Assembly: GCA_903642255.1 (NCBI GenBank)
Contig: CAHJWP010000005.1
Span: 1-40,837 of the forward strand
Reading direction: 5' to 3'
From: Sphingomonadaceae bacterium
Lineage (GTDB): Bacteria > Pseudomonadota > Alphaproteobacteria > Sphingomonadales > Sphingomonadaceae
Length of the DNA: 40,837 nt
A model generated the notes under the pieces. That model did not search any database, had not been told where the DNA came from, and worked only from the letters and a program-made list of their open reading frames with translations. Below, one piece after another: positions 7,734-36,671 of this stretch. Each line of letters begins with the position of its first letter. Positions within the stretch are counted from its first letter, which is position 1. The position numbers and the translations under genes are program-made.

Positions 7734-7735
7734 TC

Positions 7736-9022
7736 CTAGACGGCGATCGGCGCGTGCGGTGTGAAGCGGATCGGCATATGCTTGATGCCCGGGAAAAGGT
7801 TCGACGCCGACCGCTCGGGCACGCCCAGCACCTCGATGTCGAGCATGTTCTCCAGCATATACTCGAGCATCACCCGCATCTCGAGCCGGGCGAGGTGCGC
7901 CCCGAGGCAAAAATGCTTGCCGAAGCCGAAGCCAAGATGGGCATTGGGCTTGCGCTGGCTGTCGAAGCGGCCCGCGTCGCGAAATGCCGCCTCGTCGCGA
8001 TTGGCCGACAGGTTCCAGACGACGACGAGGTCGCCCTTCCTGATGTCGCGGTCGCCGAGTTTCGTGTCCTCCATCGCGGTCCGCATCTGGTGGTTGAGCG
8101 GCGTCGCCCAGCGGACGAACTCCTCGACGGCGACCTTCAGCGCGCCCGGTTCATGGCGGTGTGACCGCAGCCGCGCCATCTCGGACGGATCGGCACACAG
8201 CGCCTCGAGCCCGGCGCAGAGCGTGTTGCGCGTCGTCTCGTGCCCCGCGGCGAAGAACATCAGGCCGTTATAGGCTAGTTGTTCGTTGCTAAGCAGCCTG
8301 CCGTCGACTTCGGTGCGCGCCATAACGCTGATCAGGTCCGCGCCGTCGCCGGCTCGCCGTTCCAGCGCCAGCCCGAGACAATAGCCGTTGATTTTCGTTA
8401 GCGCCGCGCCGGCGGTTTCTATCGGCGTGCCGATGCTGAACTCGGGATCGTCCGGCGACGCGAACATGTTGTTCCAGATGTACATGTCGTGCCAGTCGCG
8501 GCGCGGGATCGCCATAACATCGGCGATCACCATCAGCGGCAGCTTGGCGGCGACATCGATCGCGAAGTCGCACGCCCCGGTCGGCAGTACGTCGTTGAGG
8601 ATTTCGACGCTCAGCCTGCGCACCAGCGTTTCCAGTTTGGCGACGTTCGGCAGTGCGAACATCTCGGCGAACGCCCGGCGCAGGACATTGTGCGGCTCGC
8701 CGTCCATCGATGACAGGCTCGCGCCGTCGCGGGTCAGCCGTAGCGCTTCCGAATTGGCCTCGTCCTCAAAGTCGGGGTGGGCGGGGAGAACGTTGCCGGC
8801 CTGCTGGATGCTGAACGTCTTGTTGTCGTTGGCGTAGACCTGCTGCGCTTCCTTGAACCGCGTCACCGACCAAAAGCCGCGACTGAGCCGACCTTCGGTC
8901 CAGTGCACGGGATCGTCGCGGCGCAGGCGGGCGTAAACCGCTTCCGGTTTGGTATCGGCGAAGAAGCTGGGGTTGGTGAGGTTCCAGTCGTCAGCGGCAC
9001 GGCCGTCGATGGTTTCGAGCAC
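7736..9022 (-). CDS. Cytochrome P450, class I bacterial type (copy A1)
   Basis: A soluble 428-residue P450 that should use ferredoxin-supplied electrons to hydroxylate or epoxidise a hydrophobic substrate. Motifs in order: the I-helix AAGHETTR with the acid-alcohol pair intact, EEFVRW supplying the K-helix ExxR, and the heme loop FGFGKHFCLGAHLAR with the ligand Cys372. No membrane anchor is present. Start is GTG, with AAGGGAAC about five bases ahead. The epoxide hydrolase begins two bases after its stop, so epoxidation followed by hydrolysis is a natural reading. The protein shares length and many stretches (for example HWTEG, LSRGFWSVT, LGAHLARLEMRVMLEY) with the P450 at 10701-11987, so the two are paralogues. 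The substrate cannot be read from sequence. Confidence 0.95.
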   Translation of the reverse strand: MLETIDGRAADDWNLTNPSFFADTKPEAVYARLRRDDPVHWTEGRLSRGFWSVTRFKEAQQVYANDNKTFSIQQAGNVLPAHPDFEDEANSEALRLTRDGASLSSMDGEPHNVLRRAFAEMFALPNVAKLETLVRRLSVEILNDVLPTGACDFAIDVAAKLPLMVIADVMAIPRRDWHDMYIWNNMFASPDDPEFSIGTPIETAGAALTKINGYCLGLALERRAGDGADLISVMARTEVDGRLLSNEQLAYNGLMFFAAGHETTRNTLCAGLEALCADPSEMARLRSHRHEPGALKVAVEEFVRWATPLNHQMRTAMEDTKLGDRDIRKGDLVVVWNLSANRDEAAFRDAGRFDSQRKPNAHLGFGFGKHFCLGAHLARLEMRVMLEYMLENMLDIEVLGVPERSASNLFPGIKHMPIRFTPHAPIAV

Positions 9023-10700: not shown

Positions 10701-11987
10701 TCAGGCCGCGATGCGACTGCCGGTATCGCCGGTGCCGACCCGGCGCCGGAAGCGGATCGGTAAGTGCTTGATCCCCCAGAACAGGTTCGAAGCGGCCATT
10801 TCCACGGGCCCGGCAAGTTCGATGTCGTCCATGTATTCAAGGACGTATTCGAGCATGACGCGCATTTCGAGCCGGGCGAGGTGCGCTCCGAGGCAAAAGT
10901 GCTTGCCGGCCGCAAAGCCGATATGATTATTCGGCGCGCGCGCGGCATTGAAGGCGCCGGCATCGACGAACCCGGTCTCGTCGCGATTGGCTGATGCGAA
11001 CCACGGCACAACCCAGTCGCCTTCCTTGATCGCCGTGCCGCCGAGGTCGAAATCCTCGGTCGCGGTCCGCAGCGTATGGGTGAGCGGCGACGCCCAGCGC
11101 ACCATTTCCTCACCCGCGGTCGCGAGCACCTTCGCGTTGAATCGCTGTTCACGAAGCGCGGCTATTTGGCCTGGTGCCCGCAGCAGCTCGAGGACTCCTG
11201 CCGACAGGGCAGCGCGCGTCGTCTCGTGCCCGGCGGCGAAGAACATCAGGCCGTTGAAGCCAAGCTTTTCGTCGTCGAGTCTGACCCCGTCGATCTCGGC
11301 GAGGCTGAGCTGGCTGATCAGGTCGTCGCCCGGGTTCCCGCGGCGTTCGCGGGCAAGGGTCGTGAGATACTCCATTAGCCCCCGGGTGCCGGCGGTCGAT
11401 GTGGTGACCGCATTGCCAAGGCTCCACTCGGGGTCTTCGGGCGCCGCCATCATGTTGTTGAAGCGATAAAGCTGCTCGGCGTCCGCCACCGGCAGGTTCA
11501 TCATCTCGCCGATGACGACGAGCGGCAGGCGGCCTGCCATGTGGACCGTGAAATCGCACTCGCCCCGGTCAAGCACGGTCTCGAAGATGCTTTGCGTGCA
11601 GCGCCGGACCAATGCCTCGAGACTGCCGATGCCGCCGACCGAGAAGCGGTCGGCAAACACCTTGCGGAGGTGCTTATGCGGCTCGCCGTCCATCATCGAC
11701 AACTGGGCGCCAGAGCGGGCGAGATGGAGGAAGTAGCTGGTCTGAGGGTCCTCGAGATCGGCGTTCGCCGGCAGGGCGGCCCCGAAGCGACCCGAGCTGA
11801 ACACGCGCGTGTCGTTCATCATCACGGTCCGGACGTCGGCGAGCTTCGTCACCGACCAGAAACCCCGGCTCAGCGCGCCTTCGGTCCAGTGGATCGGGTC
11901 GTCCCGCCGCATCCGGGCGAAGATCGCATGCGGGTCGCCGGTGGCGAAGAACGTCGGGTCGGTCAACTTCCTGTCATCTTCCCGCAT
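10701..11987 (-). CDS. Cytochrome P450, class I bacterial type (copy A2)
   Basis: A soluble 428-residue P450 with AAGHETTR in the I helix, EEMVRW as the ExxR segment and FAAGKHFCLGAHLAR as the heme loop (Cys365). It is a paralogue of the P450 at 7736-9022: the N-terminal segments around DDPIHWTEG and LSRGFWSVT and the region after the heme loop match closely. The start at 11987 has AAGGA seven bases before it; an ATG nine codons upstream lacks such a site. It is the last gene of a minus-strand operon of epoxide hydrolase, ferredoxin, TonB-dependent receptor and P450, so the ferredoxin two genes ahead is its likely electron donor. Role: first or second oxygenation of a hydrophobic substrate, substrate unknown. 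Confidence 0.95.
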   Translation of the reverse strand: MREDDRKLTDPTFFATGDPHAIFARMRRDDPIHWTEGALSRGFWSVTKLADVRTVMMNDTRVFSSGRFGAALPANADLEDPQTSYFLHLARSGAQLSMMDGEPHKHLRKVFADRFSVGGIGSLEALVRRCTQSIFETVLDRGECDFTVHMAGRLPLVVIGEMMNLPVADAEQLYRFNNMMAAPEDPEWSLGNAVTTSTAGTRGLMEYLTTLARERRGNPGDDLISQLSLAEIDGVRLDDEKLGFNGLMFFAAGHETTRAALSAGVLELLRAPGQIAALREQRFNAKVLATAGEEMVRWASPLTHTLRTATEDFDLGGTAIKEGDWVVPWFASANRDETGFVDAGAFNAARAPNNHIGFAAGKHFCLGAHLARLEMRVMLEYVLEYMDDIELAGPVEMAASNLFWGIKHLPIRFRRRVGTGDTGSRIAA

Positions 11988-12046
11988 CGTCGTGTCCTTG
12001 CCACCGGTATCCACGCATGGTCGTCGTCGTGTCTGCGAGTCGCCGA

Positions 12047-14409: not shown

Positions 14410-14733
14410 TTATGTTTGCCGATCCGGTGTCGTCATCGTGATCCCATCAAGTTCGCTGGTCAGAGTAATCTGGCAACTCAGCCGGCTGGTCGGGCGGCGC
14501 TCGGCGACTGTCCCATCGAGCAATTCGTTCTCGTGCTCGGCCATCGGTACCAGCCGGTCGAACCATGCTTCGTCAACATAGACGTGGCAGGTTGCGCAGT
14601 TGCAGAATCCGCCGCACTCGGCCTCGATGCCCTTCACGTCCCGCGACGTCGCGATGTACATGACCGAATCGCCAACATCGCCATCGACGGTGGTCGACGT
14701 CCCGTCATCGTGCAGAAAATTGACCTTCGGCAT
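14410..14733 (-). CDS. [2Fe-2S] ferredoxin, adrenodoxin/putidaredoxin type
   Basis: A 107-residue electron carrier. Cluster ligands are Cys40, Cys46, Cys49 and Cys87, giving the C-x5-C-x2-C-x37-C pattern of vertebrate-type ferredoxins that serve bacterial class I P450s. An extra Cys44 sits within the loop. Its ATG follows directly on the TGA of the upstream epoxide hydrolase with no base between, so it is probably translated by coupling. It is the only ferredoxin in a window with four P450s, and no ferredoxin reductase is seen, so the reductase must be encoded elsewhere. The TonB receptor and P450 A2 follow downstream in the same direction. Confidence 0.95.
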   Translation of the reverse strand: MPKVNFLHDDGTSTTVDGDVGDSVMYIATSRDVKGIEAECGGFCNCATCHVYVDEAWFDRLVPMAEHENELLDGTVAERRPTSRLSCQITLTSELDGITMTTPDRQT

Positions 14734-21550: not shown

Positions 21551-21572
21551 CAAAGGGAAACGCGCGCCGGTG

Positions 21573-22715
21573 ATGCTCCTCGAACACGACGCGAAAGAAC
21601 TGCTCGCCGAACGCGGCCTGCCGGTGCCGCGCGGCGAACTGCTCCGCGCCGGGCAGACACCTGCGGTTCCAGCGCCCGCCGTCGTCAAGGTGCAGGTGCC
21701 AATCGGCGGCCGCGGCAAGGCCGGCGGCATCCGCATGGCGCGGACGCCCGAAGCCGTCGTTGCCGCGCTTGCCAACCTGACCGGCATGACAATCAAGGGC
21801 CACGTCGTCCGCGCCTGCCGCGTCGAGGCGACGGTCGACTTCGTGGCGGAGGCGTACCTCAGCTTCACCCTCGACGCCGGCCCGGGCAACATTCGCGTGA
21901 TGATGTCGGCCAGCGGGGGCATCGAGATCGAGGATGCAACCGACGACCTGCTTGGCGAGAGCGTCGATGCCGAGCTCGACACCGTTCGCGCTGCAGTCGA
22001 CCGGCTCGCCGCGCGCCTGCCAGAATCGCTGCGCGCTCCGCTGCGGGATGCCGGGCACCAACTGGCGGCGGCATTCTTCGATTTCGAGGCGGTGCTGCTG
22101 GAGATCAACCCGCTGTTCGTCGCCGCCGACGGCAGCTGGACGATCGGCGATACCAAACTGTCGGTCGACGAGAACGCTTTCCCGCGTCAGCCGCGCCTGC
22201 AACGCGTGATCGAGGCCAACGCCGACCTGTACCCCGAGGCAGCGCTCAAGCTCGAGCAGGGCTTCGACTTCGTCCGGCTCGACGACAACGGCGACATCGG
22301 GCTGGTCACGACCGGCGCCGGCCTGTCGATGCAGCTGATCGACGAACTCCTCGCGCGGGGACGGCGACCGTACAACTTCTGCGACATCCGCACCGGCCAG
22401 TTCAGAGGCGACCCGGCGCGGCTGATCAAGGTGCTCGAATGGATCGCCGCCGGGCCGTCGATCCGCTCCGTACTGATCAACTTCTTCGCCGGCCACACCG
22501 ACCTCGGCGAGATCGCGCGGCTGCTGATCGCGGCGCTCGCCGCGGTGCCGCAGCTGCAGGTGCCGGTGACCGCGCGCTTCATCGGCAACGGGCTGGAAAA
22601 AGCCCGGGCAATCGTCGCCGAGGCGGGCGACCCGATCGCCATCGAAACCGACCTCGAACGCGCCATCGATCTCGCGATCCAGCGCGCCGACGCCCGCGAG
22701 AACGCCGATGCATGA
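21573..22715 (+). CDS. ADP-forming acyl-CoA ligase beta subunit, succinyl-CoA synthetase-like (diverged)
   Basis: A 380-residue ATP-grasp subunit related to SucC and malate-CoA ligase MtkA. Seen: N-terminal EHDAKELLAERGLPVPRG, the ATP-grasp loop VQVPIGGRGKAGGI, the glycine-rich MSASGGIEIED, the metal-binding LLEINPLFV, and, in the CoA-ligase domain, VTTGAGLSMQLID where SucC has a GAGLAM segment. With its partner it should join a carboxylate to CoA with ATP cleaved to ADP. It is visibly diverged from a housekeeping SucC and sits with an SDR under a LysR regulator, so a catabolic acid, perhaps dicarboxylic, is more likely than succinate. GTG at 21570 or ATG at 21573 could start it; AAAGGGAAA is 9-12 bases ahead. 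It overlaps the alpha gene by eight bases. Confidence 0.88.
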   Translation: MLLEHDAKELLAERGLPVPRGELLRAGQTPAVPAPAVVKVQVPIGGRGKAGGIRMARTPEAVVAALANLTGMTIKGHVVRACRVEATVDFVAEAYLSFTLDAGPGNIRVMMSASGGIEIEDATDDLLGESVDAELDTVRAAVDRLAARLPESLRAPLRDAGHQLAAAFFDFEAVLLEINPLFVAADGSWTIGDTKLSVDENAFPRQPRLQRVIEANADLYPEAALKLEQGFDFVRLDDNGDIGLVTTGAGLSMQLIDELLARGRRPYNFCDIRTGQFRGDPARLIKVLEWIAAGPSIRSVLINFFAGHTDLGEIARLLIAALAAVPQLQVPVTARFIGNGLEKARAIVAEAGDPIAIETDLERAIDLAIQRADARENADA

Positions 22716-23571
22716 CGCCTTCATCGCTCCCGACGTGCCGGTCATCGTCCAGGGCATGACCGGCCGCGCCGGCCGCACCCACACGCTAGGCATGCGGGCT
22801 TATGGCACCAATATCGTCGGCGGGACCTCGCCACGCGACGAGGACGTCGGCGGCCTGCCCGTATTCCGCAGTTGCGCCGCGGCGGTCGCTGCGACGGGCG
22901 CGCTTGCCAGCGTCGCGATCGTGCCGCCGCTGGCGGTGCTGCCGGCGATCGTCGAGGCGATCGACGCCGGCATCAAGACGGTCGTGACGATCACCGAGGG
23001 CATGCCGATCCACGACGCGGTCGCCGCGCGCCGCACGGTGGCGCGGGCCGGCGCGCGGTGGATCGGAGCCTCGACGCCGGGCATGGCGATTCCCGGCCGG
23101 ATGAAGCTCGGCTTCCTGCCCAACGTATCGCTATCGCCCGGCAACCTCGGTGTTATGGCGAAGAGCGGCACGTTGTCCTACGAGGTCTGCCACCGCCTCG
23201 TCGCGCGCGGCTTCGGCCAGAGCCTGTGGGTCGGCGTCGGCGGCGATCCGGTCAAGGGCACGCGCTTCGCCGACATGCTGCCGTTCTACGCCGCCGATCC
23301 GGCAACGCACGCGCTGGTCATTGTCGGCGAGATCGGCGGCGACGAGGAGGAAGCGCTCGGCGCGGCGATGCTGGCGCAGGGCTTCACCAAGCCGGTCTAC
23401 GCGCTGATCGCGGGCCAGGCGGCGCGCGAGGGCGTGACGATGGGCCACGCCGGCGCACTGATCCACGGCAACGTGGGCACCGTGGCAACCAAGACCGCAG
23501 CGTTGACCGCGGCTGGTGCGCGGGTGTTCACGCGTATTCAGGACTTGATCGAGGCCGTCGCGGCCGGATGA
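22708..23571 (+). CDS. ADP-forming acyl-CoA ligase alpha subunit, succinyl-CoA synthetase-like (diverged)
   Basis: A 287-residue CoA-binding subunit of the SucD/MtkB family. The N-terminal CoA-binding Rossmann domain contains IVQGMTGRAGRTHT, and the ligase domain contains the phosphorylated His247 in MGHAGALIHG, matching the active-site His of SucD. ITEGMP and SPGNLGVMAKSGTLSYEV are family landmarks. It begins inside the last codons of the beta gene (ATG at 22708, beta stop at 22713-22715), so the two subunits are translationally coupled and should assemble together. Its context is an SDR plus the beta subunit, not the TCA-cycle genes expected around sucCD. Confidence 0.9.
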   Translation: MHDAFIAPDVPVIVQGMTGRAGRTHTLGMRAYGTNIVGGTSPRDEDVGGLPVFRSCAAAVAATGALASVAIVPPLAVLPAIVEAIDAGIKTVVTITEGMPIHDAVAARRTVARAGARWIGASTPGMAIPGRMKLGFLPNVSLSPGNLGVMAKSGTLSYEVCHRLVARGFGQSLWVGVGGDPVKGTRFADMLPFYAADPATHALVIVGEIGGDEEEALGAAMLAQGFTKPVYALIAGQAAREGVTMGHAGALIHGNVGTVATKTAALTAAGARVFTRIQDLIEAVAAG

Positions 23572-27489: not shown

Positions 27490-28845
27490 ATGACCAAACA
27501 TATGATCCTGAATGCCTTCGAGACCAACGCGCCCGGCTTCATGCCGCCCGGGCAATGGACGCACCCGCAAGACGAGTCGTTCAACTACACGACGCTCGAG
27601 CACTGGGCGAAGCTGGCGCGGCTACTCGAGCGCGGCAAGTTCGACGGCATCTTCCTCGCTGACGTGCTCGGCATCCTCGACATCTACGGCGGCAATGCCG
27701 ATGCGGCCCTGAAGGCCGGGGCGTGGACGCCGGCGCACGATCCGATGATGCTGATCCCGGCGATGGCGATGGTGACGACCAACCTTGGCTTCGGCGTCAC
27801 CGGCAACCTGAGCTATGAAGAGCCGTTCCTGTTCGCGCGGCGCATGTCGACGCTCGACCACCTGACCGGGGGCCGCGTCGGCTGGAACATCGTCACCGGC
27901 TATCTCGACAGTGCCGCGAAAGCGCTCGGCCGCAGCGCTCAGCTGCCCCACGACGAACGCTATGTCGCGGCGGAAGAGTTCATGGATGTCATGTACAAGC
28001 TGTGGGAGGGCAGCTGGGAAGACGGTGCCGTCGTCCGCGACCGCGAGGCACGGATGTACGCCGACCCGGCCAAGGTCCACACCGTCCACCACCACGGCAA
28101 ATATTACGATATGGACGCGATGCACCGCTGCGAGCCGTCGCCGCAGCGCACGCCGGTCCTCTACCAGGCGGGCTCGTCGACCGCCGGCCGGGCCTTCGCG
28201 GCGAAGCACTGCGAGTGCATCTTCGTCGCCGGCACGTCGCAGGCCGATGCGCGCAGCATCAGCGACGACATCCGCCGCCGCGCCGCCGAAGCCGGGCGCG
28301 ATCCCGCCGACATCAGGATCATCATCGACGGCGTCGTCGTCGTCGGCGAGACCGAGGCCGCGGCACAGGCGCTGCTCGCCGAGCACCAGAGATACCTCAT
28401 CCCCGAAGGCTCGCTGGTGATGATCAGCGCCGGCATGGGGGTCGACCTGTCGAAGGGCGATCTCGATGCGCCGCTGGGGCCGGTCAAGAGCCAGGCCAAC
28501 CAGTCGGCCACCGAGGCGCTGACGAGGCGCGACGACGTCTGGACGCCGCGTCGCATCGCCAACCACCTCCACGCCGGACGCGGCGCGACGATCGTCGGCT
28601 CGCCGACGCAGGTCGCCGACGAAATGGAGGAGTGGATCGACAAAGCCGGCATCGACGGCTTCAACCTGTCGAACGGCTTCCGCTTCCGGACGATGGAGAA
28701 CTTCGTCGACATGGTGGTGCCCGAGCTCCAGCGCCGCGACGTGTTCAAGCGCGACTATGCGCCGGGCACGCTGCGCGAGAAGCTGCGGACGAAGCCGGGC
28801 GCGCGCCTGCCGGAAAGCCATCCGGCGAGCGGCTACCGACGCTAG
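27490..28845 (+). CDS. LLM-class FMN-dependent monooxygenase (NtaA/SnaA/DszA group)
   Basis: A 451-residue luciferase-like monooxygenase of the group that includes nitrilotriacetate monooxygenase, DszA and SnaA, which use reduced FMN from a separate reductase. Features: N-terminal MILNAFETNAPGFMPPGQWTHP, FDGIFLADVLG, the conserved SYEEPFLFARRMSTLDHLTGGRVGWNIVT and YQAGSSTAGRAFAAKH. Length agrees with the family. Start at 27490 with GAGGA seven bases... overlapping the SDR stop; tight coupling is likely. The group includes type II Baeyer-Villiger-like and heteroatom monooxygenases, so a ring ketone is a possible substrate. No flavin reductase is nearby. Its TAG stop overlaps the TAG stop of the convergent P450 in the sequence CTAG. 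Confidence 0.93.
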   Translation: MTKHMILNAFETNAPGFMPPGQWTHPQDESFNYTTLEHWAKLARLLERGKFDGIFLADVLGILDIYGGNADAALKAGAWTPAHDPMMLIPAMAMVTTNLGFGVTGNLSYEEPFLFARRMSTLDHLTGGRVGWNIVTGYLDSAAKALGRSAQLPHDERYVAAEEFMDVMYKLWEGSWEDGAVVRDREARMYADPAKVHTVHHHGKYYDMDAMHRCEPSPQRTPVLYQAGSSTAGRAFAAKHCECIFVAGTSQADARSISDDIRRRAAEAGRDPADIRIIIDGVVVVGETEAAAQALLAEHQRYLIPEGSLVMISAGMGVDLSKGDLDAPLGPVKSQANQSATEALTRRDDVWTPRRIANHLHAGRGATIVGSPTQVADEMEEWIDKAGIDGFNLSNGFRFRTMENFVDMVVPELQRRDVFKRDYAPGTLREKLRTKPGARLPESHPASGYRR

Positions 28846-30083
28846 CGGACCAGCATCGGGATCGACGCGGGGCCGCGCTCCTTGGGGCCGCCGATGATGT
28901 CCGGGTGGAACGACGGGTCGGCCATGTGAAGGCCGGGGAAGCGCCGCACCAGCCCGCCGACGGCGATGCGGCTGGCGGTCCGCGCCAGCGACATGCCGAT
29001 GCAGTGGTGGACGCCGTATCCAAACGCCATCGTGTCGCGCCGCGCCGTCCGCGTGATGTCGAAGCGCAGCGGGTCGGCATGGCGCGCGGCATCGAAGTTC
29101 GGCGCGCCGGTCATCAGGATCACCGGCATCGCCCGGGGGATCGGCACCCCGCCCAGTTCGGTGTCGTTCACCGCGAAGCGCAGGACGTTATAGGCATTGG
29201 AGTCGATGCGGATGCCCTCGTCGACCGTGCTCGCCGCGAGGTCGGGCTCGCGCTGGAGCAGCTCGAGCTGGTCGCGGTTGCGGCACAGCCGCCACAGGGT
29301 CCATGCGACGGTGTTGGCCGTACCACCCTGCCCCGCGACGTACAGGACAAACATCGTCGCGAACAGTTCGTCGGTCGAGATCTTCCCCGCCTCGAAATGC
29401 GCCGCGACGATCGCCCCGACGACGTCGTCGGTGGGCCTGCGTTTCTGGTCGGCGATCAGGGCCTCGCAATAGGCGCGCCCCTCGTCCCACGCCGCGATGA
29501 AGGGCGCGGGCGGCGGCGCGCCGGGGGCGAGGTTGTTGAACCCTGACATACTGTGGGCGAGCCGCAGGAAGATCGGCCAGTCGGGCTCGGGCAGGCCGAG
29601 CAGCAGGCCGAACAGCACCTTGGCCGACAGCTTGCGGCCATAGTCGGCCTGTGCATCGAATCCGCCGGCATCGTCGATCCCGTCGAGCAGCGCGGCGACA
29701 TAGTCGGTCAGTTCCGCCTCGATCGCCGCCAGCCGCCGCGGCGAGAACGCCGGGGCCATCAGGCGCCGCAACCGCGTGTGAGTCGGCGGGTCGTTATCGG
29801 TGACGACCGGCAGGCCGCGGAAATAGGCGAACTTCTCGACGCCCGGCCAGTTCTGCTTCTCGCTGGTGAAGCTGGCATAATCCTCGAGACAGCGCTGTAC
29901 CTCGGCGTGGCGCGCGACGACCGCCTGCGGCGCGTCGCCGAACATGACGTAGAACGGCGCGTCGGTCGTCCACCGGGCGAAATATTCCTGCGGCGACCGT
30001 TTCACCGCGCCGAACAGGTCGACGTCGACCAGCCGCGACCGGTCATAGGCGATGTCGGCATCGGCGCGCATGACCGTGGCCAT
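28842..30083 (-). CDS. Cytochrome P450 (copy B1) with unusual I helix
   Basis: A 413-residue soluble P450. The heme loop is FGYGVHHCIGMSLAR with ligand Cys361, and DEGIR supplies the ExxR. The I-helix motif, normally AGxET/AGxDT, reads VAGQGGTANT: Gly253 and Gly254 stand where the acid and alcohol should be, with a Thr one residue later. The acid-alcohol pair that delivers protons for O2 cleavage therefore appears to be missing. The close paralogue at 35439-36671 has a similar change, while the two A-type P450s keep AGHETT. AGGAG lies eight bases before the ATG at 30083. It faces the SDR/LLM-monooxygenase operon and is divergent from the Nudix/LysR pair. It may be an oxygenase with a different proton route or a peroxide-using enzyme; sequence does not decide. 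Confidence 0.94.
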   Translation of the reverse strand: MATVMRADADIAYDRSRLVDVDLFGAVKRSPQEYFARWTTDAPFYVMFGDAPQAVVARHAEVQRCLEDYASFTSEKQNWPGVEKFAYFRGLPVVTDNDPPTHTRLRRLMAPAFSPRRLAAIEAELTDYVAALLDGIDDAGGFDAQADYGRKLSAKVLFGLLLGLPEPDWPIFLRLAHSMSGFNNLAPGAPPPAPFIAAWDEGRAYCEALIADQKRRPTDDVVGAIVAAHFEAGKISTDELFATMFVLYVAGQGGTANTVAWTLWRLCRNRDQLELLQREPDLAASTVDEGIRIDSNAYNVLRFAVNDTELGGVPIPRAMPVILMTGAPNFDAARHADPLRFDITRTARRDTMAFGYGVHHCIGMSLARTASRIAVGGLVRRFPGLHMADPSFHPDIIGGPKERGPASIPMLVR

Positions 30084-30246
30084 CGTAGAGTCTCCTGTCT
30101 CCAGCGTCGCCGCATCGTAGAGAAAAGGTGCCGCGCCAGCCTCCGAGGATTCGTCATGGGCGCGCCACTTATCGGCATTGCGGTGCATTCCGGTTGGCGC
30201 GGCGCGAGCGGATGGTAGACGCTGGCCGGCAGGGAGGAAAACCGGC

Positions 30247-30927
30247 GTGCAACCAGTGGCGCAGCATCACGCCGGCGACTTGGCGCAGGCCCGTCGCCGC
30301 GCCGTCCGCCCGCGCGACGCTGCGACGCTGATCCTCGTCGACCGGGCGGCCGGCGCGCCCGCGATCCTGATGGGGCGACGCAGCGCCGGGCACAGCTTCA
30401 TGCCGGGCAAATGGGTGTTCCCCGGCGGCCGCATCGAGCCCAGCGATTTCCGGGTCGCCTGCGCGACGGAACTGACTCCCTGCGTCGCCAGCGAACTCGA
30501 AGCCAGCCTCCCCCCGGCGCGGGCGCGCGCGCTGGCGGTGGCGGCGGTGCGCGAGACGTTCGAGGAGACCGGCCTGCTGCTCGGCCGGGCGGCGTCGCTG
30601 CCGCGCGGCCGGGCATGGACCGCATTCGGGGCGCACGGCGTCGCGCCGGACCTCGCGTGCCTCGGTTATGTCGCGCGGCTGATCACGCCGCCGGTCCGCG
30701 CCAAACGGTTCGACACGCGGTTCTTCATCGCCGACGCCGCACATCTGGTCAGCCGCGAGCCCGTCGACAGCCGCGAGCTCGAGGAAATCGCGTGGTTCGC
30801 TCTCACGGCGACCGCCGCGCTCGACCTCGCCGCGCCGACGCGAATGGTGCTCGGCCACCTTGCGGCGCGCCTTGCCGGCACCGCGCCCGAGCCGCTGTTC
30901 CGGCGCTTCCGGTCGCCGGCGGAATGA
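30247..30927 (+). CDS. Nudix hydrolase, NUDT19/RP2-like with split Nudix box
   Basis: A 226-residue Nudix protein. The Nudix box is in two parts: FPGGRIEP (about 58-65) and RETFEETGLL (102-111), with about 27 residues more between Gly and Arg-Glu than the standard Gx5Ex7REUxEExGU spacing. An insertion at this place is typical of the NUDT19/RP2 group, members of which cleave coenzyme A or acyl-CoAs to 4'-phosphopantetheine and 3',5'-ADP. The metal-binding Glu residues of RETFEETG are present. Start is GTG at 30247 with AGGGAGGAAAA ahead; the open frame upstream lacks such a site. The following LysR gene overlaps its stop by four bases. A role in CoA turnover during catabolism of CoA thioesters is plausible. 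Confidence 0.88.
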   Translation: MQPVAQHHAGDLAQARRRAVRPRDAATLILVDRAAGAPAILMGRRSAGHSFMPGKWVFPGGRIEPSDFRVACATELTPCVASELEASLPPARARALAVAAVRETFEETGLLLGRAASLPRGRAWTAFGAHGVAPDLACLGYVARLITPPVRAKRFDTRFFIADAAHLVSREPVDSRELEEIAWFALTATAALDLAAPTRMVLGHLAARLAGTAPEPLFRRFRSPAE

Positions 30928-31835
30928 GCCCCGATTTTTTCGAGCGCTTCAACCTCCGCCACCTGCGCTATTTCCTTGCCATCGCCGACGCCGGCAGCTT
31001 TCGCGCGGCGTCGGCCCGGCTGAACATCGCGCAGTCGGCGGTGTCGCGGCGGATCGCCGACCTCGAGGCGATCTTCGCCGTGCCGCTGTTCGACCGCCAC
31101 CCGCGCGGGGTCACCCTGTCGGCGGCGGGCGAGGCGCTGCGCCACGGTGCGCGCCGCATCGGGGCCGAACTCGACGCGGCGAAGGCGGCGCTGAAGCGGC
31201 CCGCCGGCGCCGAAGCGTTGCTGCGGGTCGGCCTCTACGGGACGACGTCGCAGCTCGCCTTCGTCCCGCCGCTCATCGCGCGCTTCCGCGACGAGCTGCC
31301 CAACACCGCGCTCGACCTCTCGCCGATCGCGACGGGCGAGATCGACGCGGCGAGCCTGGCGACACTCGACGTCGCACTGTTCGAGAACACGCCGGCTCCG
31401 TCGGGCTGGCGCGCGCAACGTCTGCTGTCGAGCGCCTATGTCGCCGCGGTCCCGCGCGGCCATCCCCTGACGGCCCCCGCCGCGATTTCATTCGACGTGC
31501 TGTGCGAGGTCGAGCTGATCTGTTTTCCCGGCACCGCCAACCCGGCCGGCCACGATGCGCTGATCCGCGCCGCTGCGGAGCGCGGCCGGGCGCTCAACAT
31601 CATCCACGAGACGTCGTCGGAATGCGCGCGCCTTGCCCTTGCCGCGGCGGGCATGGGCATCGCGATCGTCTCGCCGCTCGCCGCCGCCCACGACCAGGGG
31701 TTCGCCGTCGAATATCGCGCCATGACCGGCGTCACGCTGCCCTTCGACCTGTGGCTGGCGACACAGTCCGACGCCGCCGCCGCCGTCCACTTCGCCGACA
31801 TCGCCGCGGCGACCGTCGCCGGCCTCAGCCGCTGA
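30924..31835 (+). CDS. LysR-family regulator
   Basis: A 303-residue LysR regulator with winged helix NLRHLRYFLAIADAGSFRAASARLNIAQSAVSRRIADLE and a ligand domain from about residue 93 (LRVGLYGTTSQLAFVPPLI). The ATG overlaps the Nudix stop (ATGA), so regulator and Nudix hydrolase are co-translated and it has no promoter of its own. Its 3' end overlaps the 3' end of the convergent LysR gene by 11 bases. Likely target: the Nudix operon and the divergent P450 B1 gene; no operator is evident in 30084-30246. Confidence 0.92.
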   Translation: MSPDFFERFNLRHLRYFLAIADAGSFRAASARLNIAQSAVSRRIADLEAIFAVPLFDRHPRGVTLSAAGEALRHGARRIGAELDAAKAALKRPAGAEALLRVGLYGTTSQLAFVPPLIARFRDELPNTALDLSPIATGEIDAASLATLDVALFENTPAPSGWRAQRLLSSAYVAAVPRGHPLTAPAAISFDVLCEVELICFPGTANPAGHDALIRAAAERGRALNIIHETSSECARLALAAAGMGIAIVSPLAAAHDQGFAVEYRAMTGVTLPFDLWLATQSDAAAAVHFADIAAATVAGLSR

Positions 31836-32718
31836 GCGCCGCCGCGCGGATCGCGTCGGCGACCCGCCGGCCATTGGCCGACAGCGTGGCGGACGACCAG
31901 ACGAGGTCGAGATCGACGGTCACGTCGAGGTCGGTGACGGTGCGGAACACCAGCTGCCGGCGCCAGCGGCGGGCGGCCGCCCCCTCGAGGGTCAGGGTGA
32001 TGCCCATCCCCGCCGCGACCATCGCCAGCTGGGTGTCTTCGTCGACGATATAGTGGCGGATGTCGGGGACGAGCCCGCCCACCGAGCAGGCGGCGATCAG
32101 CCGGTCGTGGACCGCCCCGGTGCCGGTCCGCGACTGGAAGACGAACGCTTCACCGGCCAGGTCGGCGAGTCGCACGTTTTCGACCTGCGCTAGCGGGTGG
32201 CCGCGGGCCAGCGCCAGCACGAAACGCTGCTGCTGGAGGGCACTGAAGCCGATGTCGGGTTCGGCATCCCATCGGCCGTAGAACAGCCCGAGGTCGAGCG
32301 TGCCCTCGCGAATCCGGTCGAGCTGGCCCGGGCGGACCACCGACAGGTGGATGTCGAGGTCGGGCAGCGCCTGACGCGCGTGGATCAGCGCGGCAGCGAC
32401 GAGCGGCAGTTCGGCGGCGATGCCGTTGGTGCCGATCCGCACGATACCGTCGCGGCCCTTGGCAAGGCTTGCCATGGTTTCGCCGATCAGCGTCGCCTCG
32501 TCGACGATGCGCCGAGCATGGACCGCGAACGGCCGCCCCGCAGCAGACAGCCTGATCTCGCCGTCGCGCCGGTCGAACAGCGCCGTGCCGACGTCGAGTT
32601 CGAGGTCGCCCAGCCGCCGGTAGAGCGTCGAGGGATCGACCGCGAGCCGCCGCGCGGCGCGCGCGAAGTTGCCCTCGCGGACCACGGCGAGAAAGTAGCG
32701 GAGATGCCGAAGCTCCAT
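31825..32718 (-). CDS. LysR-family regulator
   Basis: A 297-residue LysR regulator opening MELRHLRYFLAVVREGNFARAARRL, then VDPSTLYRRLGDLE, and a ligand domain from about residue 90. The recognition-helix segment DPSTLYRR differs from the usual QSAVSxxI pattern, so its DNA preference may differ from its neighbours. The ATG at 32718 matches the family N-terminus; the longer open frame adds an unrelated leader. It is divergent from the Baeyer-Villiger monooxygenase operon, 85 bases away, with a good T-N11-A dyad between (32759-32771), so it most likely controls that operon. Confidence 0.93.
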   Translation of the reverse strand: MELRHLRYFLAVVREGNFARAARRLAVDPSTLYRRLGDLELDVGTALFDRRDGEIRLSAAGRPFAVHARRIVDEATLIGETMASLAKGRDGIVRIGTNGIAAELPLVAAALIHARQALPDLDIHLSVVRPGQLDRIREGTLDLGLFYGRWDAEPDIGFSALQQQRFVLALARGHPLAQVENVRLADLAGEAFVFQSRTGTGAVHDRLIAACSVGGLVPDIRHYIVDEDTQLAMVAAGMGITLTLEGAAARRWRRQLVFRTVTDLDVTVDLDLVWSSATLSANGRRVADAIRAAALSG

Positions 32719-32758
32719 CGCATAGCCTCTTGGGGTGCGCGGCCAGCATAAGCAGCGA

Positions 32759-32771
32759 TGCCGGTTCGGCA
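32759..32771. promoter_or_regulatory. Candidate LysR operator (T-N11-A) before the Baeyer-Villiger operon
   Basis: TGCCG and CGGCA are perfect five-base arms around GTT, giving T32759-N11-A32771, the classic form of a LysR recognition site. It lies midway in the 85 bases between the divergent LysR start (32718) and the monooxygenase start (32804). This is the best-formed of the dyads in the window; five-base arms at this spacing are expected about once in 1,000 positions by chance. Confidence 0.45.
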
Positions 32772-32803
32772 ATCAATCCTTGCCTAATCGCCGCTGGAAA
32801 CGA

Positions 32804-34483
32804 ATGGCGACGCCGCGCAAGAGACACTCCATGGTCGCCGAGCAGCCTCAACCGGTCGTCACCGAAGTCGATGCCATCGTCGTCGGGGCCGGCATCGGCG
32901 GCATCTATGCCTTGCATCGGTTCAAGCAGCAGGGCCTGTCGGTGCTGTGTCTCGAGAGCGCAGCCGGGGTCGGCGGGGTATGGTTCCACAACCGCTATCC
33001 CGGCGCGCGGGTCGACGTCGAAAGCAGCGAATACTGCTACCATTTCTCGCCGGAGCTGTTCGGCGAATGGCGCTGGACCGAGCGCTATGCCGCGCAACCC
33101 GAACTGCTGGCGTACTTCAACCACGTCGTCGACCGGTTCGGGCTCCGCGGCGACATCCGCCTCGAAACGCCGATGCAGTCGGCGCGCTGGGTGCCGCACG
33201 AGGCGCGCTGGCACGTCGCGACGGCGACCGGATTGCACTTCGCCGGTCGCTTCCTCGTCATGGCGACCGGCAACCTGTCGGCCGCACGCGACCCCGACTT
33301 CCCGGGCCTCGCCGACTTCGCGGGCGAATGGGTCCAGGCGTCGCACTGGCCCGACCGCCCAGTCGACATCGCCGGGCGACGGATCGCCGTGATCGGCACC
33401 GGCTCGTCGGGCGTCCAGACCATTCCGGTGCTCGCCGCACAGGCCGAGCACCTCACGGTGTTCCAGCGTACCCCCAACTTCTCGGTCCCGGCGCGTAACG
33501 GACCGTCCGACGGGGCGCTGATCGATGCGATCGCCCAAGACGTGCCCGGTCGCCGCAGCCATCTGCTCGCCACCCGCGCCGCTATCACCAGCGGGCAGAA
33601 CCCCCTGCTGCCCTACGCCGCTTACACCGAGGCCGAACGCACCAGCCGTCTCGAATGGCAATGGGCGCAGGGTGGTCAGGGGATGAACCGCGTGTTCGCC
33701 GACCAGGGCACCGACCAGTTGGTCAACGACCGCGTCGCCGATTTCGTCCGCGCGAAGATCCGCGAGATCGTCACCAACCCCGCCGTGGCCGAAAAGCTGT
33801 GCCCCTATGACCACCCGATCGGCTCGCGCCGCCTGTGCGTCGACACCGATTATTACGCAACCTACAACCGCGCGAACGTGACGCTGGTCGACATCGCGGC
33901 CGACCCGATCGAGCGGATCACCCCGACCGGCATCCAGACGCGGGCCGGCCATTACCCGGTCGACCTGATCGTCTTCGCCATCGGCTTCAACGCCTTCCGC
34001 GGCGCGCTCGACCGGGTCGACATCCGCAACGAGCGCGGCGCAACGCCGACCGGCGGCTGGCAGCGCGGGCCCCGCACGCTGCTCGGGCTGATGACCAGCG
34101 GCTTCCCGAACTTCTTCTTCCTGACCGGTCCCGGCAGCCCGTCGGTGCTGTCGAACCTCGTGCTGATGAACGAGGCGCATGTCGACTGGGTCGCCGGCCT
34201 GATCGCGCACATGACGACCAACGGCTATGACACGGTCGAACCCGACCGCACCGCGGTCGAGGCGTGGACGGGAACAGTCGCGGAGGCGGCGAGCAAGCTG
34301 CTGCGGCTCGGGGTCAAGAACTATATGGTCCACGTCAACGCCGATGACGGCAGCCGGGTGTTCATGCCATACATCGGCGGCCTCGACCGCTACACGGAAA
34401 TCATGCGCGACATTGCGGCAAACGGGTACCCCGGCTTCCGCTTAAGCCAGCTTGTCGCCCCGAACCAGACTGCGGCGGCGTGA
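32804..34483 (+). CDS. Flavin-containing Baeyer-Villiger-type monooxygenase with altered fingerprint
   Basis: A 559-residue class B flavoprotein monooxygenase that should insert oxygen next to a ketone, giving an ester or lactone. FAD motif GAGIGG near residue 30, the BVMO segment GGVWFHNRYPGARVD near 53-67, and NADPH motif GTGSSG. The BVMO fingerprint FxGxxxHxxxW[P/D] reads FAGEWVQASHWP: the His is Gln178 (codon CAG, 33335-33337) and a His appears three residues on. The fingerprint His is important in studied enzymes, so activity may be changed. ATG at 32804 has GGA five bases ahead; ATG at 32831 is the alternative. First gene of an operon with SDR (4-base overlap), P450 B2 and an ABM-domain protein. 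Confidence 0.9.
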   Translation: MATPRKRHSMVAEQPQPVVTEVDAIVVGAGIGGIYALHRFKQQGLSVLCLESAAGVGGVWFHNRYPGARVDVESSEYCYHFSPELFGEWRWTERYAAQPELLAYFNHVVDRFGLRGDIRLETPMQSARWVPHEARWHVATATGLHFAGRFLVMATGNLSAARDPDFPGLADFAGEWVQASHWPDRPVDIAGRRIAVIGTGSSGVQTIPVLAAQAEHLTVFQRTPNFSVPARNGPSDGALIDAIAQDVPGRRSHLLATRAAITSGQNPLLPYAAYTEAERTSRLEWQWAQGGQGMNRVFADQGTDQLVNDRVADFVRAKIREIVTNPAVAEKLCPYDHPIGSRRLCVDTDYYATYNRANVTLVDIAADPIERITPTGIQTRAGHYPVDLIVFAIGFNAFRGALDRVDIRNERGATPTGGWQRGPRTLLGLMTSGFPNFFFLTGPGSPSVLSNLVLMNEAHVDWVAGLIAHMTTNGYDTVEPDRTAVEAWTGTVAEAASKLLRLGVKNYMVHVNADDGSRVFMPYIGGLDRYTEIMRDIAANGYPGFRLSQLVAPNQTAAA

Positions 34484-35391
34484 GCGTGGCCGGGCGCTCG
34501 CTCGAAGGCCGGGTCGCCATCGTCACCGGTGCCGGGGGGGCGATCGGGCGCGCCGCCGCCCTGCTCCTCGCCGGCGAAGGGGCGCGCGTCGTCGCCAACG
34601 ACCTCGGCGCGAAACTCGACGGCGACGGCCGCGATGCCGGTCCCGCCGAAGCGACCGCCGCCCTGATCCGAGAGGCGGGCGGCCAGGCGATCGCCAACAC
34701 CGACAGCGTCGCCAGCTGGGCCGGCGCGAGCCGCATGGTCGAACAGGCGCTGGATAGCTTCGGCCGCGTCGACATCCTCGTCAACAACGCCGGCAACATC
34801 CGCTACGCCGCCTTCCAGGACAGCGACCCGGCCGACGTCGATGCGCTGATCGGCGTGCACCTCCAAGGCAGTTATTACGCCGCGCGCGCCGTCGCCCCGC
34901 ACTTCGTCGCGCAGAAGTCGGGAGCCTATGTCCACATGACGTCGAGCACCGCGCTGATCGGCATGGCCGGCAACGCCGGCTATGTCGCCGCCAAGATGGG
35001 CGTTGTCGGCCTGTCGCGGGCGATCGCGATCGACATGGCGAAGTTCAACGTCCGGTCGAACTGCATCGCGCCGGCCGCCGCCAGCCGTATGTCCCCGCAG
35101 CGCGCGACGGCCGAGGCCGAGGCGCTGTGGGCGGCGAAGGTCCGCCCCGAACAGGTCGCGCCCCTCGTCGCCTACCTCGCCGGCGACGCTGCGGCAGGCA
35201 TCAGCGGCCAGATCATCGGCGCGCGCGGCAACGAGTTCTACCTCTACAGCCAGTCGCGCCCGGTCCGGACGCTCCACCGCGACGACGGCTGGACGGTTGC
35301 GCGGATCGCGGCGCATCTCGGCCCGGCATGGGCCTCGTCGCTGACGCCGCTCGAAGAGACGTATCAGGTCTTTGCGTGGCCACCGTTGTAG
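34480..35391 (+). CDS. Short-chain dehydrogenase/reductase, long form
   Basis: A 303-residue SDR resembling the dehydrogenase unit of multifunctional enzyme type 2 and related ~300-residue SDRs. TGAGGAIGRAAA lies at the N-terminus and VANDLGAKLDGDG after strand 2, followed by NNAG, the catalytic Ser in MTSSTAL and YVAAK. A tail of about 60 residues follows the usual SDR end. The MFE-2-like members act on 3-hydroxyacyl-CoA or similar. GTG start overlapping the monooxygenase TGA (GTGA), hence coupled. It could supply the ketone for the Baeyer-Villiger enzyme or act on the opened product. P450 B2 follows 47 bases later. Confidence 0.9.
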   Translation: MSVAGRSLEGRVAIVTGAGGAIGRAAALLLAGEGARVVANDLGAKLDGDGRDAGPAEATAALIREAGGQAIANTDSVASWAGASRMVEQALDSFGRVDILVNNAGNIRYAAFQDSDPADVDALIGVHLQGSYYAARAVAPHFVAQKSGAYVHMTSSTALIGMAGNAGYVAAKMGVVGLSRAIAIDMAKFNVRSNCIAPAAASRMSPQRATAEAEALWAAKVRPEQVAPLVAYLAGDAAAGISGQIIGARGNEFYLYSQSRPVRTLHRDDGWTVARIAAHLGPAWASSLTPLEETYQVFAWPPL

Positions 35392-35438
35392 AATATGTCC
35401 CGCGATACAGAACAATGTGACGCCTGTGGGAGGCTGCG

Positions 35439-36671
35439 GTGCTAGTCGACGCGATTGAGTACGACCGCAGCAAGGTCCGCGACATCGATCTGTGGGACCC
35501 GGCGTTGAAGGCCGATCCCGGTGCGACGTTCGTGCAGTGGTCGGGCGAGGACCCATTCTATATCCGCCACGGCAGCGCGCTGCAGGCGGTCGTCACGCGG
35601 TTCGACGATGCCAAACGCGCCCTCGAGGATCAGGTCCGATTCAGCAACGTTAAGCGGGCGTGGCCGGGAATGGAGAAGTACAACTTCTGGCAGGGCCTGC
35701 CAGTCGTCACCGACAACGATCCGCCGGACCACACCAAGCTGCGCCGCCTGCTCGCCCCGGCGTTCTCGCCGCGCCGCCTCGCCTCGGTCGAGGCTGGCGT
35801 CCAGCAGTTCATCGCCGGCCGCCTCGACGCTATCGCCGCCGAAGGCAGCGGCCGCTTCGAGCTGATGCGCGTCTTCGGCCGCGAACTGTCGATCCACATG
35901 CTGCTCGGGCTGCTGATGGACATCGCCCCCGACGACCGGTCGCAGTTCGTCGCCGTGTCGGACGGCCTGTCGATGTTCGCGTCGCTGCCGGCCGGCGAGC
36001 CCGCGCCTGCGGCGTACCTCGATGCGTGGGCGAGGACCCGCGCCTATTGCGAGGAACTGATCGAGCAGCGCCGCCGCCAGCCGGTCGACGATCTGGTCAG
36101 CAACATCATCGCCGCGCACGACACCGAAGGGCGGCTGACCTCCGACGAATTGTTCGCGACGTTCATCATCCTGTTCGTCGCCGGAATCTCGGGCGTGGCG
36201 CATCTGATCGGCTGGATGATGTGGCGGCTGTGCCGCAACCCCGAGCAGATGGCCCTGCTTCGCCGCGAACCCGCGCTGATCGGCGGCGCGATGGAGGAAA
36301 CGCTGCGCATCGAACCGATCGGCTATACCGCGCTGCGTTGGTGCCAGTCGGATTTCACGATGTCGGGACTCGACTTCCTGCGCGACATGCCGGTGATGGT
36401 CGTCGAGGGCGCATCGAGCTTCGATCCGACGCGTTACGACGACCCGCTGCGCTTCGACATCACCCGCAAGCCGCGCCGCGACTCGCTGGCCTTCGGCTTC
36501 GGCATCCACCATTGCATCGGCGCCCCCGTCGCGCGGATGGCCACGAAGCACGCCGTGACCATGATGCTTGACCGTTTCCCGGAGCTGCGCCTGCAGGACC
36601 CCGACTTCCGCCCAACCGTCGTTGGCAGCCCCAAGGACCGGGGGCCAGCATCGATCCCGGTCGCCGTCTGA
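35439..36671 (+). CDS. Cytochrome P450 (copy B2) with unusual I helix
   Basis: A 410-residue soluble P450, paralogous to B1 at 28842-30083: both carry LPVVTDNDPP, then HT, LRRL and APAFSPRRLA, and a C-terminal GPASIP. Heme loop FGFGIHHCIGAPVAR (Cys359) and METTLR-type ExxR (EETLRIEP) are intact. The I helix reads VAGISGVAH: Ser251 and Gly252 replace the acid and Thr of the AGx[E/D]T motif, codons TCG and GGC at 36189-36194. GTG start with GGGAGG six bases ahead. It follows the Baeyer-Villiger enzyme and SDR and precedes an ABM-domain gene by 18 bases, all in one direction. Reaction unknown; missing proton-relay residues argue for an unusual O2 or peroxide mechanism, or a substrate hydroxyl replacing the Thr. 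Confidence 0.94.
   Translation: MLVDAIEYDRSKVRDIDLWDPALKADPGATFVQWSGEDPFYIRHGSALQAVVTRFDDAKRALEDQVRFSNVKRAWPGMEKYNFWQGLPVVTDNDPPDHTKLRRLLAPAFSPRRLASVEAGVQQFIAGRLDAIAAEGSGRFELMRVFGRELSIHMLLGLLMDIAPDDRSQFVAVSDGLSMFASLPAGEPAPAAYLDAWARTRAYCEELIEQRRRQPVDDLVSNIIAAHDTEGRLTSDELFATFIILFVAGISGVAHLIGWMMWRLCRNPEQMALLRREPALIGGAMEETLRIEPIGYTALRWCQSDFTMSGLDFLRDMPVMVVEGASSFDPTRYDDPLRFDITRKPRRDSLAFGFGIHHCIGAPVARMATKHAVTMMLDRFPELRLQDPDFRPTVVGSPKDRGPASIPVAV

Follow-up and report, generated by a model that had tools for sequence, protein, structure and literature searches.

In cytochromes P450, the I helix usually reads A-G-x-[D/E]-T-T, and P450cin (CYP176A1) retains the acid of this motif. Among the closest described systems, EryF (CYP107A1) works without the conserved Thr (Ala245), the 5-OH group of the substrate providing the proton path (described in PMC10741444). 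In P450cin, Asn replaces Thr, and the cineole route is described as comprising a P450, a dehydrogenase and a Baeyer–Villiger step (PMC8398027). In the description of CYP152 enzymes, Arg-Pro binds the substrate carboxylate and H2O2 is used (PMC5818669).

The window, a stretch of 40,837 nucleotides from a Sphingomonadaceae bacterium (GCA_903642255.1, contig CAHJWP010000005.1), contains two paralogous P450 genes, B1 and B2, whose products are 48% identical. The following features were annotated:

7736..9022 (−): canonical P450 (AGHETT), best solved match CYP125
10701..12014 (−): second canonical P450 (AGHETT), of the same clade as the P450 at 7736..9022
14410..14733 (−): [2Fe-2S] ferredoxin resembling putidaredoxin; shares 68% identity with the ferredoxin directly upstream of the core P450 L154 of genome G831
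27490..28845 (+): LLM-class FMN monooxygenase, NtaA/DmoA family (526 bits, above cut-off), convergent with B1
28842..30083 (−): B1 cytochrome P450, 413 aa if started at the Met at 30083; longest possible ATG ORF from 30188
29190..29192 (−): codon of B1 Tyr298 (ExxR+6), candidate proton donor or substrate contact
29322..29327 (−): B1 codons G253-G254 (GGT GGT), expected acid–alcohol site, register from alignments
32735..34483 (+): FAD monooxygenase, Baeyer–Villiger type (BVMO), FMO-like above the Pfam cut-off; best NCBIfam match PtlE, at 240.6 bits far under the cut-off of 1100
34480..35391 (+): short-chain dehydrogenase (SDR), 47 bp before B2
35439..36671 (+): B2 cytochrome P450, 410 aa, third gene of the BVMO-SDR-P450 array
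36189..36194 (+): B2 codons S251-G252 (TCG GGC), expected acid–alcohol site, register from alignments
36324..36326 (+): codon of B2 Tyr296 (ExxR+6)

B1 and B2 belong to the P450 superfamily by profile PF00067 (56.7 and 85.6 bits, respectively; cut-off 22.8), by the Cys-ligand loop, by ExxR and by the predicted P450 fold. The heme loop reads FGYGVHHCIG in B1 and FGFGIHHCIG in B2, and ExxR is kept in both; these motifs had been described as intact in the initial annotation, which also correctly reported that the window's two remaining P450s keep AGHETT. The I-helix sequence is A250-G-Q-G253-G254-T255 in B1 (numbered from the Met at 30083) and A248-G-I-S251-G252-V253 in B2. Accordingly, the earlier reading of Gly-Gly in B1 and Ser-Gly in B2 in place of Glu/Asp-Thr was confirmed from the ORFs at these coordinates, from ungapped alignments and from two AlphaFold2 models. 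In HMMER alignments, A-G-I-S-G-V of B2 falls on A-G-F-E-A-S of wild-type EryF without a gap, and both proteins align ungapped with canonical A-G-x-E-T-T-like chains. The I helix is continuous in each model, with block pLDDT values of 85–91 (B1) and 87–95 (B2) across the two blocks holding the motif. An acid followed by Thr or Ser at the right turn of the helix in both proteins, named in the annotation as the refuting result, was sought in these alignments and models and was not found.

Structural neighbours of the two models have Z-scores of about 40 to 43.5 over about 370–390 aligned residues among the 50 matches listed. P450cam does not appear among the 50 matches listed for either of the models, an absence that excludes nothing. 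The structural matches include PDB entries 5z9i/5z9j, referred to as ‘unusual P450-like monooxygenases’.

A third paralogue, B3, was found in the same genome (G000), and four further members were found in two other genomes: L152, L149 and L154 in G831, another genome from this bacterial family, and L023 in an Acetobacteraceae MAG. All seven, hereafter the core members, have Gly or Ser followed by Gly at the mid-I-helix turn where canonical P450s have Asp/Glu followed by Thr/Ser, while Cys and ExxR are kept in 7/7; the change is thus shared family-wide, a check that the annotation had proposed. Among 252 further distinct P450s in the collection, only three lack both residues; among 39 P450s sampled from related genomes, the pair is kept in 38 and both residues are absent in one. 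Gly codons at the changed site differ between separate assemblies (GGT, GGC, GGG). Jukes–Cantor corrected dN/dS was computed for six pairs, and dN is lower than dS in all six, indicating purifying selection, with values of about 0.28 (B3/L149), 0.39 (B1/L152), 0.23 (B3/L023), 0.24 (L149/L023), 0.50 (B2/L154) and 0.59 (B1/B2). Loss of the acid–alcohol pair is a trait of the family and not a matter of chance; the earlier suggestion that a loss kept by both paralogues is probably functional is supported by its presence in seven members from three genomes, by dN < dS and by the retained Cys and ExxR. B1 has Thr one position on (T255) and B2 has Ser in the acid position (S251), but neither is conserved over the seven core members (V, T, L, T, L, I, I at position 255 and S, G, G, G, G, G, G at position 253 in B1 numbering), so neither rescues the pair, and both were rejected as its replacement.

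The core members form a single clade (support 100/97 in an 84-row tree; 98/95 in a 39-row tree with the motif masked), nested in a clade of 14 rows (100/100) from which the acid is absent throughout. The acid-less sisters, L012, L103, L104, L018, L021, L022 and L153, belong to the same bacterial family and have Gly or Ser in the acid position (7/7). Thr is retained in six of the seven sisters and replaced by Pro in L018, whereas the core has Gly. L177 of G831 (GGFGTV), considered as a sister by its motif, was rejected, as it lies outside the 14-row clade. The acid would have been lost early, giving way to Gly or Ser, and the alcohol replaced by Gly later, in the stem branch leading to the core; we infer this order, as well as the number of losses and a horizontal spread.

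Genome searches covered overlapping sets of 148 relatives and 396 genomes of the order, 385 of the class, 397 of the family and 398 of the phylum, as well as 14 genomes of the genus of G831 and one of the genus of G054; up to 12 candidates per genome were scored for the relatives and up to four for the order, class, family and phylum, so misses are possible. Core members were found in G000 and G831 only. The five other genomes of the genus of G000 gave no core member at E 1e-40, and the 13 other genomes of the genus of G831 gave none at E 1e-70. In a contig scan, among the best 80 of 557 relatives, L023 belongs to the core, identity being 37% or lower for the remaining 79. Among plasmids, a tblastn search with B2 returned 1259 records, with 40 listed matches at 30–36% identity; B3 gave none at E 1e-40, and the sister L012 gave 12 records, with six listed matches at 31–37%. 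No members were found in viral contigs. No P450 with Gly at both positions was described in the titles and abstract openings covered by a literature search. We take the core P450s to be a small bacterial family with a patchy distribution.

The gene order BVMO-SDR-B2 is compact, the BVMO stop overlapping the SDR start (GTGA). A relative of the LLM-class FMN monooxygenase (61% identity) is located near the core gene L023. The nearest solved proteins to the window ferredoxin are 4ltu, 3hui and putidaredoxin. L154 is preceded on its own strand by a putidaredoxin-like ferredoxin gene, at a distance of 34 or 70 bp depending on the choice of the L154 start Met, and a ferredoxin gene begins 4 bp past the stop codon of L104, one of the acid-less sisters. 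In the stretches read, no ferredoxin gene was found beside B1, B2, B3, L152, L149 or L023, L154 being the only one of the seven core genes with such a neighbour. Scans of the window for promoters and terminators, Rfam families and tRNAs gave nothing useful. The core P450s may belong to class I, which takes electrons from a [2Fe-2S] ferredoxin, as gene adjacency hints for L154 and, among the sisters, L104. As judged from gene order, turnover is more likely driven by electrons than by H2O2; the ferredoxin gene beside one relative suggests that the core family probably still works and obtains protons in another way.

Tyr at ExxR+6 is present in all seven core members and in none of the 224 pair-keeping P450s; it also occurs in one distant P450, L005 (AGHHST). 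Since the Tyr is inherited by common descent, its link to the loss of the pair counts as one event, plus L005. This family-specific residue is a candidate proton donor or substrate contact.

On balance, the core P450s are regarded, with moderate confidence, as working ferredoxin-driven, O2-dependent oxygenases that would obtain protons from the substrate and/or from the family-specific Tyr. Electron-driven turnover, proton source, reaction and substrate are all proposed here conditionally. The enzymes may take part in the catabolism of a hydrophobic compound of polycyclic or terpenoid-like nature; both protons for O–O cleavage would come from elsewhere, either from a group on the bound substrate (in EryF, the 6-DEB 5-OH) and/or from ordered water held by the Tyr at ExxR+6, the Gly-Gly turn giving room. 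The product of B2 would pass to the adjacent SDR and BVMO, leading to ring cleavage. The BVMO-SDR-B2 array fits the types of steps described for cineole and camphor degradation, namely hydroxylation, dehydrogenation and Baeyer–Villiger steps (PMC8398027, PMC4097962). For a fused OleT, in which the pair is absent, a computed mechanism has the second proton come from the carboxylic acid of the substrate (PMC10988616). The T268A mutant of P450BM3 is reported to vary in activity with the substrate, and T252A in CYP199A4 to be less damaging than the P450cam mutation (PMC9366932). Against the favoured explanation stand the single ferredoxin neighbour among seven core members and the shared descent of the Tyr, as well as two reports: P450cam Thr252 mutants lose 78–95% of camphor hydroxylation (PMC12332404), and 95% uncoupling is given for a P450cam relay mutant, printed as D251N (PMC9366932). 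As far as the cited passages describe them, the precedents all retain an acid, so the loss of both residues is a bigger change. Uncoupling of 95% fits T252A, while D251N chiefly slows turnover.

In a first rival explanation, with no relay protonating the distal oxygen, the ferric peroxo anion could last long enough for an attack on electrophilic carbon (aldehyde deformylation, C–C cleavage or Baeyer–Villiger-like insertion). Such specialization for Compound 0 is unlikely. In its favour, relay loss should slow Compound I formation, as the P450cam Thr252 mutants illustrate, and Compound 0 performs aldehyde deformylation in P450 2B4, according to 18O labelling (PMC10877606). Several nearby SDR and aldehyde dehydrogenase genes handle carbonyls, and ferredoxin adjacency is also compatible with this chemistry. 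However, P450BM-3 and 11A1 are described as staying with Compound I even on substrates poised for Compound 0, and mutants that might switch as not predictable a priori (PMC12332404); furthermore, the BVMO next to B2 already supplies Baeyer–Villiger chemistry. Equally tentative is a combined scenario, in which a ferredoxin-fed lineage shed the relay in two steps (acid, then Thr to Gly), either to hold Compound 0 as a nucleophile or with protons rewired via the Tyr at ExxR+6.

Use of H2O2 or an organic peroxide in place of NADH and O2 would make the relay unneeded, as in CYP152 enzymes, which likewise lack the pair (Arg-Pro; PMC5818669), and neighbouring flavin monooxygenases could conceivably leak H2O2. 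This is quite improbable, as ferredoxin genes adjoin one core member (L154) and one sister (L104) and no peroxide source is common to all core loci read; a CYP152-type identity is ruled out, Arg-Pro occurring in 0/7 core members. Improbable, too, is a heme that does not activate oxygen and serves rearrangement, dehydration or reduction, or a mainly ligand-binding protein. P450s without oxygen activation (CYP74, P450nor) do depart at the acid–alcohol positions, and TIGR04515 (glycosyltransferase activator) is the best NCBIfam match of B1 (104.9 bits) and the third of B2 (100.4 bits); however, Cys and ExxR are retained in 7/7 and ferredoxin adjacency speaks for electron use. Identity as a P450-derived glycosyltransferase activator is ruled out by scores far under the cut-off of 343 and by the retained Cys. 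Concealment of a normal pair by mis-alignment or sequence error has a negligible probability: nothing was found in its favour, the same change occurs in separate assemblies with differing Gly codons, and the ungapped alignments and the continuous helix of both models rule out a shifted register.

Canonical relatives, acid-less sisters mostly with Thr, and core members with neither residue form a natural series, with a ferredoxin gene next to one core member (L154) and one sister (L104), that offers a direct experimental handle on relay-free oxygen activation. The motif alone is no ground for calling P450s inactive or peroxide-driven.

EryF, a bacterial P450 of class I, shares with the core the absence of the conserved Thr, and its structure (1oxa) matches the B2 model with Z 41.8 and rmsd 2.5 over 387 aligned residues at about 30% identity; however, EryF retains Glu (AGFEAS), whereas the core lacks both residues and has Gly at the alcohol site, and thus differs from the EryF type (Ala for Thr, Glu kept). 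The P450cin pathway resembles the BVMO-SDR-B2 array, but the residue replacing Thr is Asn in P450cin and Gly in all seven core members. CYP152 enzymes (P450BSbeta, SPalpha, OleT) share the absence of the acid–alcohol pair with the core and differ in having Arg-Pro instead of Gly/Ser-Gly; two of the 14 clade rows, by contrast, have a ferredoxin neighbour.

Two paralogous P450s of the window, B1 and B2 (48% identical), are encoded by intact ORFs with PF00067 scores above the cut-off:

28842..30188, minus strand: P450 B1
35439..36671, plus strand: P450 B2

The initial annotation held that the I-helix acid-alcohol pair is replaced by Gly-Gly in B1 and Ser-Gly in B2, and that the A-type P450s of the window retain AGHETT; both points were confirmed. 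The motif is AGQGGT in B1, AGISGV in B2 and AGHETT in the other two P450s of the window. In ungapped HMMER alignments, the B1 motif lies on those of canonical chains, for example A-G-H-E-T-T, while in the proposed comparison with EryF A-G-I-S-G-V of B2 lies on A-G-F-E-A-S of the wild-type enzyme, with Ser-Gly on Glu-Ala. The AlphaFold2 models are confident overall (mean pLDDT 90.1 for B1 and 91.6 for B2) and contain an unbroken I helix (residues 237-268 and 235-266, respectively); the two ten-residue blocks containing the motif have pLDDT values of 85 and 91 in B1 and 87 and 95 in B2. Among the matches listed by VIA-align, B1 is structurally closest to CalO2 (Z 43.5, rmsd 2.3, 382 aligned) and B2 to CYP142 (Z 43.4, rmsd 2.3, 382 aligned), numerous rows being tied within 1.

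The change was found to be common to the family. The third paralogue of the same genome (G000, assembly 71% complete), B3, has the motif AGIGGL, and four further members, including three from G831, a genome of the same bacterial family with an estimated completeness of 100%, also lack the pair:

L149, G831: AGIGGL
L152, G831: AGHGGI
L154, G831: AGIGGI
L023, Acetobacteraceae MAG, bog_899: AGLGGT

Heme Cys and ExxR, described as intact in the initial annotation, are retained in all seven of these core members. Outside the core, the nearest relatives are seven sister P450s from the genomes G054, G267 and G370; Gly or Ser takes the place of the acid in them, and most keep Thr (GGLGTV, AGLGTV, GGFSTI, AGIGTT, GGVSTV in two, and GGTSPI, with Pro for Thr, in L018). 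Beside two acid-less sisters of G054, apparent molybdopterin oxidoreductase-like proteins were noted by eye (L012:2391-3644 (+) and L021:3-1532 (-)).

In a tree built from 84 of an initial 147 P450s, the core forms one side of a branch with support 100/97, and core and sisters form a 14-row set with no other row (100/100); a motif-masked tree of 39 rows gave 98/95 and 100/100, respectively. The simplest reading of these unrooted trees is a single loss of the acid before the 14 rows diverged and two separate replacements of the alcohol, one by Gly on the core stem and one by Pro in L018.

Of the 259 distinct P450 ORFs collected, the full pair is present in 225; the acid alone is missing in 23, the alcohol alone in one, and both are missing in 10 (the core, L018, L031 and L267). 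Acid-only loss is therefore not uncommon in this collection, which leans towards relatives of the query. Across five genomes carrying core or sister genes, the pair is kept in 5/9 P450s recovered from G000, 23/30 from G831, 21/25 from G054, 13/15 from G267 and 2/3 from G370; of these 82 P450s, 11 lack only the acid and seven lack both, six being core members. A control sample comprised 40 regions chosen among the P450 matches listed for 59 related genomes, with G000 and G054 excluded; L243 duplicated a gene already included, leaving 39 P450s, with weak-scoring ones under-represented, and 38 of the 39 keep the pair. The exception, L267 (ORF from 1423 (-), G062), has VGIIAP, with neither residue, and a long branch. 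A separate clade from genomes of the same bacterial family (L019, L105, L106, L108, L121 and L122) has AGN[L/I]TTT, with Leu or Ile for the acid and Thr kept.

The dN and dS values (Nei-Gojobori script, Jukes-Cantor corrected) were 0.228 and 0.816 for B3/L149 (70% identical), 0.313 and 0.800 for B1/L152 (59.6% identical), 0.286 and 1.26 for B3/L023, 0.284 and 1.20 for L149/L023, 0.499 and 1.00 for B2/L154, and 0.459 and 0.774 for B1/B2. The ratio is below 1 in all six pairs, least so in the two widest; dS is probably kept low by GC-rich third positions. Together with the conserved Cys and ExxR, this supports the earlier proposal that a loss retained by both paralogues is probably functional. 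Within the genus of G000 a core gene was found in G000 alone and not in the 5 other genomes searched, and within that of G831 in G831 alone and not in 13 others; this patchiness suggests horizontal spread.

A [2Fe-2S] ferredoxin gene (Fer2) lies upstream of L154 on the same strand, at 34 or 70 bp depending on the start Met chosen for L154. Its product is 68% identical to the window ferredoxin (14410-14733); among solved proteins, the latter best matches 4ltu, 3hui and putidaredoxin. Another ferredoxin ATG lies 4 bp past the stop of the acid-less sister L104, same strand; no adjoining ferredoxin was found for the other six core genes in the stretches read.

Conserved Cys and ExxR, ferredoxin genes by one core and one sister member, and loss of the pair most simply point to a putative working oxygenase drawing protons from another source. 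Hydroxylation is reported to fall by 78-95% in P450cam Thr252 mutants (PMC12332404), and the outcome of Thr mutation is said to vary with enzyme and substrate (PMC9366932). Substitutes are described: the substrate 5-OH in EryF (PMC10741444), a substrate acid computed to give the second proton in an OleT fusion (PMC10988616), and Arg-Pro in peroxygenases, given as having no pair (PMC5818669). The altered pairs named in PMC7481197 all retain the acid. The most interesting alternative, held less probable, is that the core P450s perform Compound-0 chemistry (PMC10877606, PMC12332404). Should the core enzymes indeed be oxygenases that obtain protons elsewhere, the Tyr at ExxR+6 (Tyr298 in B1, Tyr296 in B2) is a candidate new donor by its distribution: among 258 readable rows of 259, it occurs in 7/7 core members, 0/224 pair-keepers, 1/23 acid-only losers and 0/4 others. 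The acid-only loser with this Tyr, L005:841-2118 (+) on G000:C12, is a distant P450 with AGHHST (His for acid). I-helix Trp261 is invariant in the core and present in 11/252 others.

Two genes precede B2 in an array, first that of a BVMO-type FAD monooxygenase and then that of an SDR, and these two overlap by GTGA; B2 lies 47 bp beyond the SDR gene, and its GTG start is preceded by GGGAGG. An LLM-class FMN monooxygenase gene (526 bits) is convergent with B1. Around L023 there are relatives of this monooxygenase (61% identical) and of the window's first canonical P450 (68%), 3-hydroxyacyl-CoA dehydrogenase (62%) and acyl-CoA dehydrogenase (83%, 298 residues); between L154 and L149 in G831, there are a TonB receptor (37%), a LysR gene (54%) and a relative (46%) of the first canonical P450. 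No shared block was found around L152 and B3 in the stretches read. Amidohydro_3 genes occur close to B3 and L149 and also in L023. Two genes of PhyH-type non-heme iron dioxygenases lie near B3 (L161:5467-6525 (-) and 7801-8748 (+)). The window also contains a SucCD-like pair (21561-23568) that scores under the succinate-CoA ligase cut-offs and may be a CoA ligase acting on a different acid, and two epoxide hydrolases with an EHN domain (6588-7910 (-) and 14734-15927 (-)).

The closest solved protein to the first canonical P450 is CYP125 (293 bits). The genes suggest a putative catabolic pathway whose substrate would be a hydrophobic compound, polycyclic or terpenoid-like. Cineole and camphor degradation are described as proceeding through P450, dehydrogenase and Baeyer-Villiger oxidation steps, step types which match the P450, SDR and BVMO genes at B2 (PMC8398027, PMC4097962), and the cineole P450 is reported to lack the conserved Thr (PMC8398027).
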